Assembly (NCBI GenBank): GCA_024640825.1
Contig: JAHEEG010000023.1
Span: 1 to 35,687 of the forward strand
DNA length: 35,687 bases
Source: Gammaproteobacteria bacterium
GTDB taxonomy: Bacteria > Pseudomonadota > Gammaproteobacteria > Pseudomonadales > Azotimanducaceae
Direction: 5' to 3'
Shown piece by piece: positions 23,783 through 29,915 of this stretch; positions within the stretch are counted from its first letter, which is position 1; every line of letters starts with the position of its first letter. The notes under the pieces were generated by a model. It was not told the DNA's origin. It did not search any database and saw nothing but the letters and a program-made list of their open reading frames with translations. Position numbers and translations under genes: made by a program.

Positions 23783-24415
23783 TTGTCCGAGTTGCTACCA
23801 TCTCTGGTCGTCTCCCTTCAGGTCTACCTGCAGAACATGGCCTGGCTGGAACTCAGCGGTCTGATTTCCGGCCTGCTGTGTGTCTGGCTGCTGATCCGTC
23901 AGAACATCTGGACGTTTCCAATCGGGCTTTTTTACTCCGTTGTTTCGGTGGTGGTGTTTACCCAGGAACGGCTCTATGCGGATGTGCTGCTGAACGGCTA
24001 CTACGTGGTCATGAACGGCTACGGCTGGTACTACTGGCTGTATGGTGGCAAGCAGCGCTCGCCGGACACGCTGCCGGTTTCCTTCACGCCCGCGCGAACC
24101 CGCTGGCTGCTGATTGCGCTGGTCGCTGCAAGCACGCTTGTCATGGGCTTGTTTCTAGACAACCGCACCGATGCCGACCTGCCTTACTGGGACAGCGCTA
24201 CCACGACCATGAGCTTTGCAGCCATGTGGATGACGGCCCGCAAATACATAGACAACTGGATCGTCTGGCTGGTAGTGGACATCATTGCTACCGGCATGTA
24301 CATCGTCAAAGGTATCGACTTTTACGCCGTGCTTTACGGCGTTTATCTGTTCATGGCGATAGCGGGGTGGCGCGTGTGGAAGCGGAGCATGAATCTGGCC
24401 TCATCATCTGCCTGA
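23783..24415 (+). CDS. pnuC: PnuC family nicotinamide riboside transporter
   Basis: Inner-membrane transporter that takes up nicotinamide riboside for NAD synthesis. Family features: seven hydrophobic segments in about 200 residues, the N-terminal block LLCVWLLIRQNIWTFPIGL, the tyrosine/tryptophan-rich NGYGWYYWLYGG and the C-terminal WLVVDIIATGMYIVKG. The start is uncertain: TTG 23783 or ATG 23837 (MAWLELSGLISG), neither with a clear Shine-Dalgarno; the ATG gives a more usual PnuC N-terminus. The end overlaps the NadR-type kinase gene by about 40 bases, which supports NAD precursor salvage as the substrate class rather than thiamine or riboflavin (related transporters). Confidence 0.92.
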   Translation: MSELLPSLVVSLQVYLQNMAWLELSGLISGLLCVWLLIRQNIWTFPIGLFYSVVSVVVFTQERLYADVLLNGYYVVMNGYGWYYWLYGGKQRSPDTLPVSFTPARTRWLLIALVAASTLVMGLFLDNRTDADLPYWDSATTTMSFAAMWMTARKYIDNWIVWLVVDIIATGMYIVKGIDFYAVLYGVYLFMAIAGWRVWKRSMNLASSSA

Positions 24416-24915
24416 CGGGTCCCGAGTCTACGGGCAAGACGACGCTCGCCGCTGCCCTGGCAGCGGAGTTCGACCTGCCCCTGATTCCGGAAACGGCGCG
24501 TGACTACCTGCGCGGCAGGGCCGCTTACGAGCGGGAAGATCTGTTAGCAATCGCTGATGCCCAGCTGGCCGCAGAGGCCACAGTGCTGGCATCCGGCGCA
24601 CCGGTGGTGCTGGCGGATACGGATCTGGTGGTCATTCAGGTCTGGTGGGAAGAGAAGTACGGCGGGCTGGATATCCGGATCTCGCAGGCGCTTCAGGCCC
24701 GCTCCGCGCGCCGCTACCTGCTGATGCAACCCGATATTCCCTGGGCGCCTGACCCTCAGCGTGAGTCACCCTTTGATCGACAGCGTTTGTATCATCGCTA
24801 CCAGGAGCTTCTGGCAGCGTCCGAATTTCCCTTTGCGGAGATCAGTGGCCATGGCGAGGCCCGGCTGGCTGCAGCTCGGCTGCATGTGTTGCGCTGGCTC
24901 AGGGAGGTCGGCTGA
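24376..24915 (+). CDS. NadR-type ribosylnicotinamide kinase / P-loop ATPase
   Basis: Matches the C-terminal kinase domain of NadR, which phosphorylates nicotinamide riboside to NMN, trapping it after PnuC uptake. Visible motifs: P-loop TGPESTGKTT near the N-terminus, IPETARDYL, the acidic ADTDLVVIQVW, and the PW-containing LLMQPDIPWAPDPQRES. At 179 residues it is the kinase alone, without the DNA-binding or adenylyltransferase domains of full NadR. The frame is open far upstream, but GTG 24376 (alternatively 24367) gives a start just before the P-loop with a GGGGTGG stretch in front. It overlaps pnuC by 40 bases in another frame, strongly suggesting co-expression. Confidence 0.88.
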   Translation: MEAEHESGLIICLTGPESTGKTTLAAALAAEFDLPLIPETARDYLRGRAAYEREDLLAIADAQLAAEATVLASGAPVVLADTDLVVIQVWWEEKYGGLDIRISQALQARSARRYLLMQPDIPWAPDPQRESPFDRQRLYHRYQELLAASEFPFAEISGHGEARLAAARLHVLRWLREVG

Positions 24916-24948
24916 GCCGACGCGCGCAGAACAAAGAGCAGGTTCGGG

Positions 24949-25788
24949 TCAAACGAGCCCCTGCAGTCGTTCTTCGCCTCGCGACCGCTGTTCAAGGATT
25001 TCGGGGCGCGTATCCCCTGCCGCGATTTCAGCCGCCGCCCAAGCAAATTCCCTCAGCCAGAAAGCAGTCAGGCAAGCCCGCGTTCGAGCCTCGCTCACGT
25101 CGGTCTGCAGCAGCGCTTCGGCGAGCTCGCCCAGCAATGTGTCGTCGAATGCCAGAGACTGATGCAGAGTAATCAGGTCAAACAGAGGATCGTTTCTGCC
25201 GAACCATTCCCAGTCCAGGGTAACCCAGCGTCCGTCCGGCCCTTGGATGACGTTCCACGGGTTCAGATCGTTGTGGCAACTCACGGTTGTCGCCTGCGGC
25301 CAGACGGCCCGGTGAGCGAGCCGAAGAATCCAATCCGGCACGGCGACGCTCTGCAGATACAGCCTGGCCTGGGCGACCGGATCGAAAGTACGGCGGGTTT
25401 CCGGCAGGTCAGCGTGCAGCCGTCGGAGGTAGCGGACGACCTGGTCCGGATCCGGGGACAGATCTGCCAGAAGATGGCCCTGCACCCAGCGGCTGATCAT
25501 CCGCCCGCTGAATGGGTCGAAAGCCACTATGTCCGGCGTTGCGGGCACCTGCCGGGCCAGCAGTAACTCGCGCTCCAGATGCCTGTCGACGAATGGCCGT
25601 TCCCGATGCGGGGCGCGCAGAACGTAGATGGAGCCCCGATGGGTGAAGCGGTAATTGCGGTTGCTGTAGCCGCCGTCGAGATAGCGAAAGCTGCCAATGT
25701 CCTCCGCCGTCCAGGACGGCACAAGATCGCAGATCCAGCCCAGCAGCTGCTGGGAAAGGGCGAGCCCGTTGTCCTGATTTACCAGCAT
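24949..25788 (-). CDS. Choline/thiamine kinase-like phosphotransferase (APH fold)
   Basis: Aminoglycoside-phosphotransferase-fold small-molecule kinase, 279 residues, cytoplasmic. The N-lobe reads YLDGGYSNRNYRF, with YVLRAP carrying a possible ATP-side basic residue. The catalytic loop is CHNDLNPWNVI (Brenner H-x-D-x-x-x-x-N), followed by the metal-binding Asp in VTLDWEWFGRNDPLFDL. This pattern fits LicA-type choline kinases and thiamine kinase ThiK better than antibiotic kinases; which substrate is used cannot be told. It is convergent with the NadR-type kinase gene (33-base gap). Upstream lies the hairpin-element region. Confidence 0.82.
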   Translation of the reverse strand: MLVNQDNGLALSQQLLGWICDLVPSWTAEDIGSFRYLDGGYSNRNYRFTHRGSIYVLRAPHRERPFVDRHLERELLLARQVPATPDIVAFDPFSGRMISRWVQGHLLADLSPDPDQVVRYLRRLHADLPETRRTFDPVAQARLYLQSVAVPDWILRLAHRAVWPQATTVSCHNDLNPWNVIQGPDGRWVTLDWEWFGRNDPLFDLITLHQSLAFDDTLLGELAEALLQTDVSEARTRACLTAFWLREFAWAAAEIAAGDTRPEILEQRSRGEERLQGLV

Positions 25789-25848
25789 TGCGAGACACTA
25801 CCTGTGATGGGCTTTTCCGGCAATATGCTGGCTGGTCTATGTAGGTGA

Positions 25849-25991
25849 GTCACCGGGAGAATCGACGTTCGCTGACCTGGCGACGGCGCTCCGCGCTGCC
25901 CTCAGGCGGTGACGTTGCCCCGCTAAGGGGCGGGTCAAGTCACCTTCTTCGGCGTCGCCACATCGTCAGCGAACGTCGGTTCTCCCGCCGT
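25849..25991 (+). repeat. Hairpin element copy A (inverted repeat family, about 143 bases)
   Basis: The left arm 25854-25876 and right arm 25965-25987 are inverted repeats matching at 22 of 23 positions. Inside are nested stems: TGGCGACG (25878-25885) with CGTCGCCA (25953-25960), GGTGAC (25908-25913) with GTCACC (25939-25944), and GCCCC (25917-25921) with GGGGC (25927-25931). The whole can fold into one long hairpin. It shares GTCACCGGG, a 34/35 match from 25872 to 25906, and 18/19 of GCGTCGCCACATyGTCAGC with copy B in reverse orientation. No coding sequence fits. It may be a MITE-like or REP-like element. Confidence 0.8.
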
Positions 25992-26063
25992 CTCTCAGCT
26001 TGGCCGCCGGCTCGCTCGAACCGAACGACCGTCTGCATCAGTCGTGCTGGGAACATGTCAGAC

Positions 26064-26223
26064 GTGTCACCGGGAAAGAGGTTATGCTGACAATGTGGCG
26101 ACGCGGAAGGAGGGCAATTGACCCGGCCGAGCGCGCTTGCGCGACTCGGTGGGGCAACTTGCCAGACTGAGGGTAGCGCGGAGCGCCGTCGCCAGGTCAG
26201 CAGAACCTCTTACCCGGTGACAC
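26064..26223 (-). repeat. Hairpin element copy B (reverse orientation to copy A, about 160 bases)
   Basis: GTGTCACCGGG (26064-26074) pairs perfectly with CCCGGTGACAC (26213-26223). The stem continues with AAGAGGTT (26076-26083)/AACCTCTT (26204-26211), TGCTGAC (26085-26091)/GTCAGCA (26196-26202) and TGGCGACG (26096-26103)/CGTCGCCA (26187-26194). The centre adds GGCAA/TTGCC and a CCGAG-CGCGC hairpin (26127-26149). Read on the minus strand it aligns with copy A in the conserved blocks but differs in part of both arms, where complementarity is nevertheless kept. Together the two copies fill most of the 478-base gap between the phosphotransferase and Sir2 genes; the 72 bases between them show nothing recognisable. 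Confidence 0.8.
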
Positions 26224-26266
26224 CAGCCGATCAATTTCCCTGGAACGAATGCCGCATCCTGAACTT

Positions 26267-27034
26267 TCAATTGATCCCGACAACGTAACTCAAAGTCGGC
26301 CCGATCTCCTCGTGAACCACGACGTCGGCTATGGCATCCAACGGCGTTTCTTCACGATTGACAATAGCCAAACCTGCGCCCAGGCGCTTCGCGTATTCAG
26401 GAAAACCCGCAGCGGGATAAACGGCCAGCGATGAACCGACGACGAGGCATAGATCACTGGCTTCCACCGCCTCCTGAGCGCGCTCCATCTCCCGCTCAGG
26501 CATGGCCTGGCCGAAGGAGATGGTGGCAGATTTTATGATGCCTCCGCAGCGTGAGCAGGGGCTGATTGTCTGGTGTTCCAGAAACTGCTGCTCGAGGTCT
26601 GCCAATTCGTAGCGAGTCTGACAGGAAAGGCAGGTTGCGTAACTGGCGTTGCCGTGCAACTCGATAACCTTGTTCTCCGGAATGCCGGAATCCTGATGCA
26701 GGTTGTCCACGTTCTGGGTAATGACAGCCAGGCCCTTGCCGACTCCCATCAGTCGGGCAATCGCTTCGTGGCCTTTGTTGGGCTTTGCATTTTCCATGCT
26801 TCGCTCGCCGGTAAAGCGGCGTCGCCAAGACTCCTGGCGCATTTCTTCGCTGGAGAGGAAATCCTGGAACTGAATGGGTTGCATTTTGGTCCACAGCCCG
26901 GTGCCTGGGCTGCGGAAATCGGGGATGCCGGATTCTGTACTGATGCCTGCGCCGGTGAAGAAAACAATGCGCCTGGCCCGGTCGATGAGGGCCTGCAGGC
27001 GTTCAATGGGCTCGGAGTTGCGGGTATTGCTCAT
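26267..27034 (-). CDS. cobB: Sir2-type NAD-dependent protein deacylase
   Basis: Sirtuin that removes acyl groups from protein lysines, using NAD and releasing nicotinamide and O-acyl-ADP-ribose. Motifs: NAD-binding FFTGAGISTESGIPDFRS, TQNVDNLHQDSG, catalytic His in IELHGNASYATC, the zinc-binding pairs CLSC and CSRC, and LVVGSSLAVYPAAGF. 255 residues, normal for bacterial class sirtuins; the Tyr/Arg pair that marks CobB desuccinylases was not obvious, so the acyl preference is open. The start is ATG 27032-27034. It lies near the PnuC/NadR-type salvage genes, which would supply its cosubstrate, though it is not in one operon with them. Confidence 0.92.
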   Translation of the reverse strand: MSNTRNSEPIERLQALIDRARRIVFFTGAGISTESGIPDFRSPGTGLWTKMQPIQFQDFLSSEEMRQESWRRRFTGERSMENAKPNKGHEAIARLMGVGKGLAVITQNVDNLHQDSGIPENKVIELHGNASYATCLSCQTRYELADLEQQFLEHQTISPCSRCGGIIKSATISFGQAMPEREMERAQEAVEASDLCLVVGSSLAVYPAAGFPEYAKRLGAGLAIVNREETPLDAIADVVVHEEIGPTLSYVVGIN

Positions 27035-28561: not shown

Positions 28562-29200
28562 CTAACGGGCCTCTTGAGCACTAGCGCGACGCCGTAGCTG
28601 CTGGAGCACCTCTGGTGGCTGCGCGAGTCTGGCAATAATTCGCTCCGCGCATTCTCTGGGCGTCGTGTTGCTCGTGTCCACCTCCAGATCGTAGCTGGCG
28701 CCATGGGCATGTACCTCATGGAAGTGCGAGGTGGCCGTGCCAGGAAAGCGCCCAGGCCTACGCCGCTCCCGGTCGTTTACAACGTCCAGGCTGCAGCGCA
28801 CGCCGATCAACCAGGCATCCAGGTCGTACAACGCTTCGGCATAGTCCACGAGGTACTCGGGCTTGAAAATAAGGTCATCGATAATGATGTTGTTGCCCTC
28901 ACGAGCGAACGCGGCGATGGCCCGTCGCATGCCTCTGAGAACCTTTTCGCCGTGCTCGCCGAAGCGGATGCGGGTGATCAGTTCGCCATTTTCCCGGGTT
29001 GGCACGACGTTCAGCCCCAGATCTCCCGGGGTTCCTGCTGGGGAGTTGAGGCCCCGGTAGCGGCCCGGCATGCCGTCGCGAAACTGATCCAGCGCTATGT
29101 GCTGGTAGGGCTCATCCAACAGCTGCTGCAGCATGACGGCCAGAGTCGTCTTCCCGGCGCTGGAGGAACCATTCAGGAATATGATTTTACCTGTCCCCAT
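28562..29200 (-). CDS. Chloramphenicol phosphotransferase-like P-loop kinase
   Basis: Small P-loop kinase of 212 residues in the CPT family, whose founding member phosphorylates chloramphenicol in its Streptomyces producer. The P-loop IFLNGSSSAGKTTL, the catalytic Asp38 in HIALDQFRDGMP, GNNIIIDDLIF, LIGVRCSLDVVNDRE, and the late YDLEVDTSNTTPRECA are all as in CPT. In a gammaproteobacterium the natural substrate is probably not chloramphenicol. The frame is open 72 codons further upstream, but ATG 29198-29200 starts right at the P-loop strand and leaves a 43-base divergent gap to the phosphopantetheinyl transferase. Confidence 0.85.
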   Translation of the reverse strand: MGTGKIIFLNGSSSAGKTTLAVMLQQLLDEPYQHIALDQFRDGMPGRYRGLNSPAGTPGDLGLNVVPTRENGELITRIRFGEHGEKVLRGMRRAIAAFAREGNNIIIDDLIFKPEYLVDYAEALYDLDAWLIGVRCSLDVVNDRERRRPGRFPGTATSHFHEVHAHGASYDLEVDTSNTTPRECAERIIARLAQPPEVLQQLRRRASAQEAR

Positions 29201-29243
29201 CCTGGCGATGGTATCCGGAAGCGTCGTGGACCACAATTGGGCA

Positions 29244-29915
29244 ATGAGCTGGACTGAATTGCCTCCACTAGATTCGAATATCAGGACACAACTACCTGAT
29301 ATTGAAGGTCTTGAGATGGTTGCTGCCTGGGTTGGCGACCATCGCGACGAGCTCTTTCCGACGGAGCGGCCGGCAGTCGCGCGGGCTGTGGAAAAGCGGA
29401 TTCGGGAGTTCGCCACGGGCCGCCATCTGGCCAGGCGGGCATTTGATATGCTGGGCCTGCCACGAGCCGCAATTCCCTCGGGTCAGGCGCGGGAGCCGCT
29501 CTGGCCCAAGGGCTGCATTGGCAGCATCACCCACAGCGAGGCGCTGGCGATAGCGGCGGTAGCCGCCTCTGGTACCCTGCGCGGCATAGGCATCGATCTC
29601 GAGGTGGTCGAGCGCGTGACGCCGGCGCTTTATACGCGGCTGATGACGCCGCGGGAGTGCGGCCTGCTGCAGGATGCCGATTCCAGAATGCCAGGCCTTC
29701 TTTTCAGTGCTAAAGAAGCCGGCTACAAGGCCGTGAATCCGTTGGTGGGAACGTTCATAGGGTTTCAGGAAGCGGAAGTGTACGTCGACTGGCCAGGCAG
29801 TCGTTTCACGCTGCGCTATACCGGTGAACACGAACCTAACCAGATAATGCAGCAGGGCGAGGGTTTCTTCTGCTTTTTCGAGCGTTACGTCTTCACGCTG
29901 TTTATCATCCGCTGA
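29244..29915 (+). CDS. 4'-phosphopantetheinyl transferase, EntD type
   Basis: Transfers phosphopantetheine from CoA to a carrier-protein serine. Motifs: GSITHSEALAIAAVA, the metal-binding GIGIDLEVVE (Asp118, Glu120) and LLFSAKEAGYKAV (Lys157, Glu158, Lys162). The layout matches EntD/PptA of siderophore and polyketide systems. No NRPS, polyketide or siderophore gene is in the window, so the target carrier protein is elsewhere. ATG 29244 gives a 223-residue protein, normal for the group; a longer open frame begins at 29133 but would overlap the divergent kinase gene. Confidence 0.9.
   Translation: MSWTELPPLDSNIRTQLPDIEGLEMVAAWVGDHRDELFPTERPAVARAVEKRIREFATGRHLARRAFDMLGLPRAAIPSGQAREPLWPKGCIGSITHSEALAIAAVAASGTLRGIGIDLEVVERVTPALYTRLMTPRECGLLQDADSRMPGLLFSAKEAGYKAVNPLVGTFIGFQEAEVYVDWPGSRFTLRYTGEHEPNQIMQQGEGFFCFFERYVFTLFIIR

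Follow-up and report, generated by a model that had tools for sequence, protein, structure and literature searches.

The gap between the phosphotransferase gene (24949-25788, minus strand; Pfam APH) and the Sir2 gene (26267-27034, minus strand; Pfam SIR2) of the window, by which the whole analyzed stretch of 35,687 nucleotides is meant, contains two large hairpins that face each other. Judged from sequence, this feature apparently represents a new REP/REPIN-like family of the Pseudomonadales that is apparently undescribed. The reading favored here is that the pair is a unit of a non-autonomous interspersed palindromic family, REPIN/BIME-like and made of two facing hairpins; a probability of roughly two in three is assigned to this reading, with the three steps of the mechanism proposed below included. 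The initial annotation had placed two elements in this gap, in opposite orientation and each able to form one long multi-stem hairpin, and the present analysis bears out all of these points. Beyond that annotation, the arms are specific to each copy, the facing pair recurs, and the units favor the 3' ends of genes.

Copy 1 occupies 25849-25987 on the plus strand and copy 2 occupies 26064-26223 on the minus strand, with a spacer (25988-26063) separating them. The opposite orientation is evident from two stretches of similarity, 25871-25932 against 26140-26201 (82%) and 25928-25970 against 26086-26128 (84%), and the common blocks described initially (GTCACCGGG, GTTGCCCC and the CGGCGCTCCGCGCT block) are all found. 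In copy 1, the left arm (25854-25876) is complementary at 22 of 23 positions to the right arm (25965-25987), and the conserved core between them (25877-25964) contains a closing stem (25878-25884/25954-25960), a hairpin 1 with a TCC loop (25886-25896) and a hairpin 2 (25908-25923/25930-25944), all on the plus strand. In copy 2, which is read on the minus strand, the left arm (26196-26223) pairs with the right arm (26064-26091) at 26 of 28 positions, and the core (26092-26195) contains hairpin 1 (26176-26186) and a hairpin 2 with an extra loop stem (26147-26158/26118-26125). The outer end of copy 1 is formed by GTCACCGGG (25849-25857, plus strand), and copy 2 carries this motif, inverted, at its own outer end (26213-26221); the same motif is present inside both arms of copy 2 (in 26064-26091 and, inverted, in 26196-26223). 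Folded as RNA, copy 1 reaches -99.7 kcal/mol (z -8.95) and copy 2 reaches -96.8 kcal/mol (z -8.88), and none of 200 shuffles matches the fold of either copy. When both strands of both copies are folded as DNA, the z values lie between -5.4 and -8.7.

The unit of the window sits between tandem rather than convergent genes, and the model match of copy 2 lies approximately 60 bp from the Sir2 stop. In the surrounding region (23783-27034), genes for an NMN transporter (PnuC family), an AAA_28 protein, which we take to be NadR-like, the APH-type phosphotransferase and Sir2 are grouped together, and this group may serve NAD salvage and use. Elsewhere in the window, the listed open reading frames 28562-29416 (minus strand, chloramphenicol-phosphotransferase-like) and 29133-29915 (plus strand, 4'-phosphopantetheinyl transferase) overlap; the GTG start of the former is probably too far upstream because its Pfam match begins at residue 76.

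A lack of further copies would have counted against the initial annotation, but dispersed copies are found by both BLAST and a covariance model built from an alignment of 25 cores. A BLAST search of the same genome (G000) with the 375-bp stretch yields 13 match rows on 7 contigs, which take in the window itself and both-strand matches of single hairpins, and the covariance model yields 21 matches, which together indicate that the pair of the window is not a local duplication. With 150 candidates scored per genome and E<=0.01, the counts for the genus members are 21 in G000, 32 in G004, 5 in G001 and 2 in G003. Among 117 genomes, 16 (G000 included) match at E<=0.01, some of them from other genera; one of the 16, G056, is a weak match from another family, and the genus mate G002 (68% complete) has no match in this search. 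Within the family as a whole, at least 16 of 206 genomes (G000 included) match at E<=0.001, a lower bound obtained with 17 candidates scored per genome; across the order, with 9 candidates scored each, at least 2 of 390 genomes match, namely G000 and G251, which belongs to another family of the order and carries diverged members of the element family. The BLAST search of 58 related genomes returns matches in G000 and the genus mate G004 only, and an exact core pattern searched in GTDB species contigs matches a single genome, a Pseudomonadales MAG corresponding to G004, with no match among viral contigs. As a control, 29 loci taken for their Sir2, GltD-like or Y1_Tnp genes give four matches at E<=0.01, all of which are known element sites of G004, and the next best value is E 0.18. 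Rfam 15 gives no match up to E 1 in 25700-26350 and, with gathering scores as the threshold, none anywhere in the window; the plasmid and phage collections contain no element match, and searches of the open-access PMC literature brought up no description of the family. The initial view of an unrecognized, REP-like and lineage-specific feature is supported by the empty Rfam, plasmid and phage searches and by dispersed copies in relatives, and of its suggestions the REP-like one fits best.

The element is an approximately 100-nt conserved core atop a long arm, and the whole hairpin measures about 130-200 nt. The core comprises the closing stem, hairpin 1 (a 4-bp stem capped by a loop of three bases, TCC) and hairpin 2 (conserved TTGCCC/GGGTCAA), in addition to conserved unpaired positions. 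Stem covariation is observed directly in A2, an alignment of 105 sequences, with a structure composed of the core-adjacent arm foot, hairpin 1 and hairpin 2: 88.2% of cells are paired compared with 67.6% in shuffles, cells changed on both sides number 463 compared with 145, and the covariation score is 0.443 compared with 0.131 in shuffles and at most 0.058 when the structure is slid. A2 was fitted to the model R1, which holds hairpin 2, part of the arms and a core pairing that was later rejected, so the counts for these three lean upward; hairpin 1 is absent from R1, and its covariation, in which two of the four pairs alternate between G-C and C-G, is therefore independent of the model that made the alignment. 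The rejected pairing, CGGCGCT with GGCGTCG, is preferred by RNAalifold, and it loses to the structure with hairpin 1 (76% paired and a score of 0.167 against 88% and 0.443; the two structures differ in extent). The conservation of the core could instead reflect a host function.

The arms, which lie mostly outside the covariance model, pair within each copy and are mostly unrelated between copies. Where clearly paired, they are mostly 21-51 bp in length. Among the 94 matches with enough flank, complementary arms score at least 12 in 84 and at least 15 in 83, compared with a mean of 6.1, a 95th percentile of 9 and a maximum of 26 for left and right arms taken from different elements; the maximum is this high because some elements are related. 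The ten matches that score below 12 include truncated or decayed copies, such as L105 in comparison with its intact orthologue L104. Past the first 18 nt next to the core, no arm position holds more than 0.24 bits (66 elements). In 14 orthologous pairs between G000 and G004, identity is 84% in the core, 70-74% in the arms and 62% in the flanks, and unrelated sequence gives 52% by the same measure. In the loci L032, L036, L043 and L044, nested palindromes are observed: a second, outer pair of inverted repeats of approximately 24-30 bp lies past the arms, from which it is separated by sequence that matches poorly.

Arm changes were counted over 24 arm positions in each of 12 orthologous comparisons (the row L097 2514/L107 2431 was left out), among which L043/L034 possibly do not represent the same element and three rows look replaced rather than drifted. 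In these comparisons, 193 pairs are unchanged, 65 are changed on both sides with pairing kept (39 transversions and 26 transitions), 27 are mismatched in one element and 3 in both. In five related arms of G251, 10 double changes, 4 of them transversions, stand beside 5 mismatches. A G-U pair offers no intermediate for a double transversion, which makes selection and templated repair separable hypotheses, and such changes fit arm-to-arm copying no less well than slow compensation. When the rows with arms at least 55% unchanged are taken by themselves, the counts are 163 unchanged, 30 double (16 transversions), 20 mismatched in one element and 3 in both, and the smaller proportion of double to single changes there slightly lowers the weight given to templated arm copying.

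The facing orientation of the window pair recurs throughout the family. Neighboring matches within a locus face each other in 24 of 26 cases, the remaining two being back-to-back and tandem, and 22 of the 24 facing pairs are spaced by 82-265 nt (the others by 376 and 1157). Two core types, A and B, are present in G251, and the facing orientation holds for all six A/B pairs that lie close together, one of them with a truncated A copy; this count leaves out L221, L225 and the second B copy in L218. Alternating arrays are sometimes found, for example in L039, and at the G091 loci L114, L121, L124, L137 and L144 long linkers past the hairpins recur both ways, as if in arrays.

Gene settings were obtained with a purpose-made, simple codon-usage gene caller, by which 104 of 105 matches are intergenic. 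Units with both flanking genes called lie in 30 convergent, 23 tandem and 6 divergent gaps, and when the G004 orthologues of G000 loci are removed, the 48 remaining units, a set that still holds a few other orthologues, lie in 25 convergent, 17 tandem and 6 divergent gaps. Control pairs of adjacent genes from the same loci (n = 202) are 31 convergent, 117 tandem and 54 divergent, which gives a clear preference for convergent gaps (25/48 against 31/202, Fisher p 3.4e-7) and a depletion of divergent ones (p 0.04). Single elements between tandem genes are sense in seven cases and antisense in seven, and 12 of these 14 lie nearer the 3' end. A sense-strand element of 3' untranslated regions was first hinted at by 71 of the 97 matches with a called upstream gene, which share the direction of that gene; this excess arises largely because any orientation in a convergent gap is the same as that of one gene, and the candidate was rejected on the even split between tandem genes.

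Presence and absence of elements at orthologous gaps and stretches common to copies at different places bear on how the units spread. In G091, copies at different places have arms, core and spacer in common, examples being a stretch of 161 nt at 96% identity and one of 106 nt at 97%. One convergent gap, between genes with Pfam matches Pyr_redox_2/Fer4_20 and AAA_22/SPOR, presumably gltD and damX, measures 472 bp in G000 and approximately 500 bp in G004, both with elements; read by eye, the orthologous gap is approximately 4 bp in G068, 19 bp in G015 and 70 bp in G003, with no model match at E<=0.1 in these three. The G091 stretches and the element-free gaps suggest spread as units, and for a single gap, loss in the relatives may account for the difference instead. 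After a GltD-like gene of G004 (contig C57, L182), the spacer between two elements consists of about ten tandem copies of the 8-base CAGGTAGC, and in L184 (G068) a 36-bp perfect palindrome lies approximately 320-360 bases past the GltD-like stop, apparently inside the convergent neighbor gene. Orthologous element loci are present in G004 for 14 of the 18 G000 loci examined, which indicates that most copies in this genome are old; no orthologous element locus was matched for four loci from G001 and G003. Two loci are common across genera (L088/L128 and L126/L143), which points either to old copies or to repeated use of the same sites.

Under the favored reading, and by analogy with REPINs/BIMEs, the unit would spread while folded as single-stranded DNA, recognized through its core by a putative enzyme supplied in trans; copies would persist mainly near gene 3' ends, where they may do the least harm; and the arm sequence would drift while the pairing is kept, either through selection for hairpin formation or through template-switch (quasipalindrome) correction, by which one arm would be copied onto its partner. 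A RAYT is not supported as the mobilizing enzyme, as Y1_Tnp genes do not track the elements: they occur in 6 of the 13 element-bearing genomes searched, several of which are incomplete, and in 4 of 6 others. In eleven Y1_Tnp loci that were scanned (L148-L158, of 20), no element match falls below E 0.6, and no transposase or autonomous element copy was found. L099 and L225 each have a gene enclosed by two elements (without a Pfam match in L099, for a dienelactone-hydrolase-type protein in L225); these look like host genes and were rejected as autonomous copies. In a more far-reaching form of the template-switch option, each arm change would be transferred to the partner arm during replication, which would yield near-perfect palindromes together with sequence turnover, and the elements would form a class of mobile DNA with a three-stem core, folded as single-stranded DNA and recognized by a putative enzyme, whose arms are rewritten by DNA-level copying. 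This proposal is speculative and considered unlikely; if it holds, natural genomes would record quasipalindrome correction on an evolutionary scale.

Three other explanations of the same data differ in what the hairpin would be selected for or moved by. A structured regulatory RNA in 3' untranslated regions, acting in stability, processing or attenuation and selected as RNA, would account for the strong covariation, the conserved unpaired positions and the location near gene 3' ends, but it is considered unlikely. On the model strand, G-T mismatches are rarer than A-C ones, with 22 against 51 cases for the arms and 30 against 62 for the core stems, which is the opposite of the RNA wobble signature. 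The arm counts derive from isolated mismatches in 98 elements, which also include 53 pyrimidine-pyrimidine and 18 purine-purine cases, and the bootstrap interval of the G-T share is 0.20-0.43. Since an A-C excess equals G-U on the opposite strand, this argument covers model-strand RNA only and leaves room for selection as an RNA of the other strand or as DNA, and it is used with limited weight because the G091 copies have mismatches in common by descent and the trend is reversed in G000 (10 G-T against 4 A-C), G020 (4 against 0) and G071 (1 against 0). The even sense-antisense split between tandem genes also speaks against a regulatory RNA, as do the facing pairs, which place one member antisense to a gene whatever its direction, and the window gap, in which no terminator-like or promoter-like site was found.

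A classical MITE, with terminal inverted repeats on which a DDE transposase acts and with an interior that is palindromic by chance, appears less probable still. The GTCACCGGG ends in the window and the G251 units, seven aligned stretches of which have common inverted ends (GGTGCCACTAGC...) of approximately 17 bp outside the hairpins, agree with it. Outside G251, matching outer regions exceed the 95% level of the null in 3 of 22 pairs, where about 1 would do so by chance; these 3 pairs count in its favor, but terminal inverted repeats are not supported as a general feature, the other 19 pairs staying below that level. No target-site duplication was seen by eye at the ends of the G251 units, no empty/filled pair could be aligned at base resolution, and the conserved part is the core and not the ends. 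The preference for convergent gaps would also be expected of transcription terminators that act in both directions and had evolved in situ where two genes converge. Such an origin is highly improbable, as dispersed copies with a common core, and in G091 and G251 with common arms and spacers too, argue for spread, and no intrinsic terminator (a GC-rich stem followed by a T run) occurs in 25600-26400. Of the alternatives raised by the initial annotation, a MITE may apply in view of the G251 ends, and a structured RNA of the model strand is disfavored by the mismatches and the 7:7 split.

ERIC elements are non-autonomous, roughly 100-400 bp in length and intergenic, as are the elements described here. 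The same likeness holds for bacterial MITEs as characterized in PMC10969869. The elements differ from both in that terminal repeats are not their conserved part, no target duplication was seen and no Rfam match exists. An integron attC site has conserved end boxes and is served by an integron integrase, whereas the conserved part here is central and not terminal. According to PMC3116915, REPINs are REP doublets that form hairpins, with conserved blocks as short ends and a variable pairing part between; the present units resemble them in having two inverted conserved blocks, a variable pairing stretch with common compensatory changes, and an extragenic, dispersed distribution. They differ in that the blocks are folded cores of approximately 100 nt, each flanked by its own variable complementary arms, and, from the REPIN/RAYT system, in which the genome has a RAYT (Y1_Tnp) gene with the elements on its flanks, in that no tracking of Y1_Tnp genes is seen among the genomes searched. 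GTAG/CGTC REPs, according to PMC3733652, are 20-40 bp in length and end on one side in an unpaired tetranucleotide that is conserved, and they share with the present elements opposite-orientation dimers, heterodimers and a location in convergent gene gaps or downstream of a gene. The 24 facing pairs among 26, the preference for convergent gaps and the 3' proximity agree with this arrangement. However, the hairpins here measure about 130-200 nt instead of 20-40 bp, their outer arm is almost without conserved bases, and CGTC sits inside the core (GGCGTCGC) and not at the foot, so that membership in the GTAG/CGTC REPs fails because of size and tag. BIMEs, which are alternating REP arrays, are similar in their palindromic units of alternating orientation that sometimes form arrays and differ in unit size and sequence (PMC2817692). 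Intergenic stem-loops of 40 genomes, some of which are repeat families, are concentrated on the 3' side of genes according to PMC1590033; its newly named families belong to Yersiniae, Bordetellae and Enterococci and are set apart here by description and not by sequence.

Eight of the G091 matches lie within approximately 30 bases of a contig end, so the elements may break draft assemblies. Interspersed palindromes of bacteria are old and common, and how they spread and why their pairing persists are unsettled questions. Within one order, and in two of its families, the elements described here invert the usual design by having a conserved tip and arms free of sequence constraint, and thus pairing can be studied apart from sequence.
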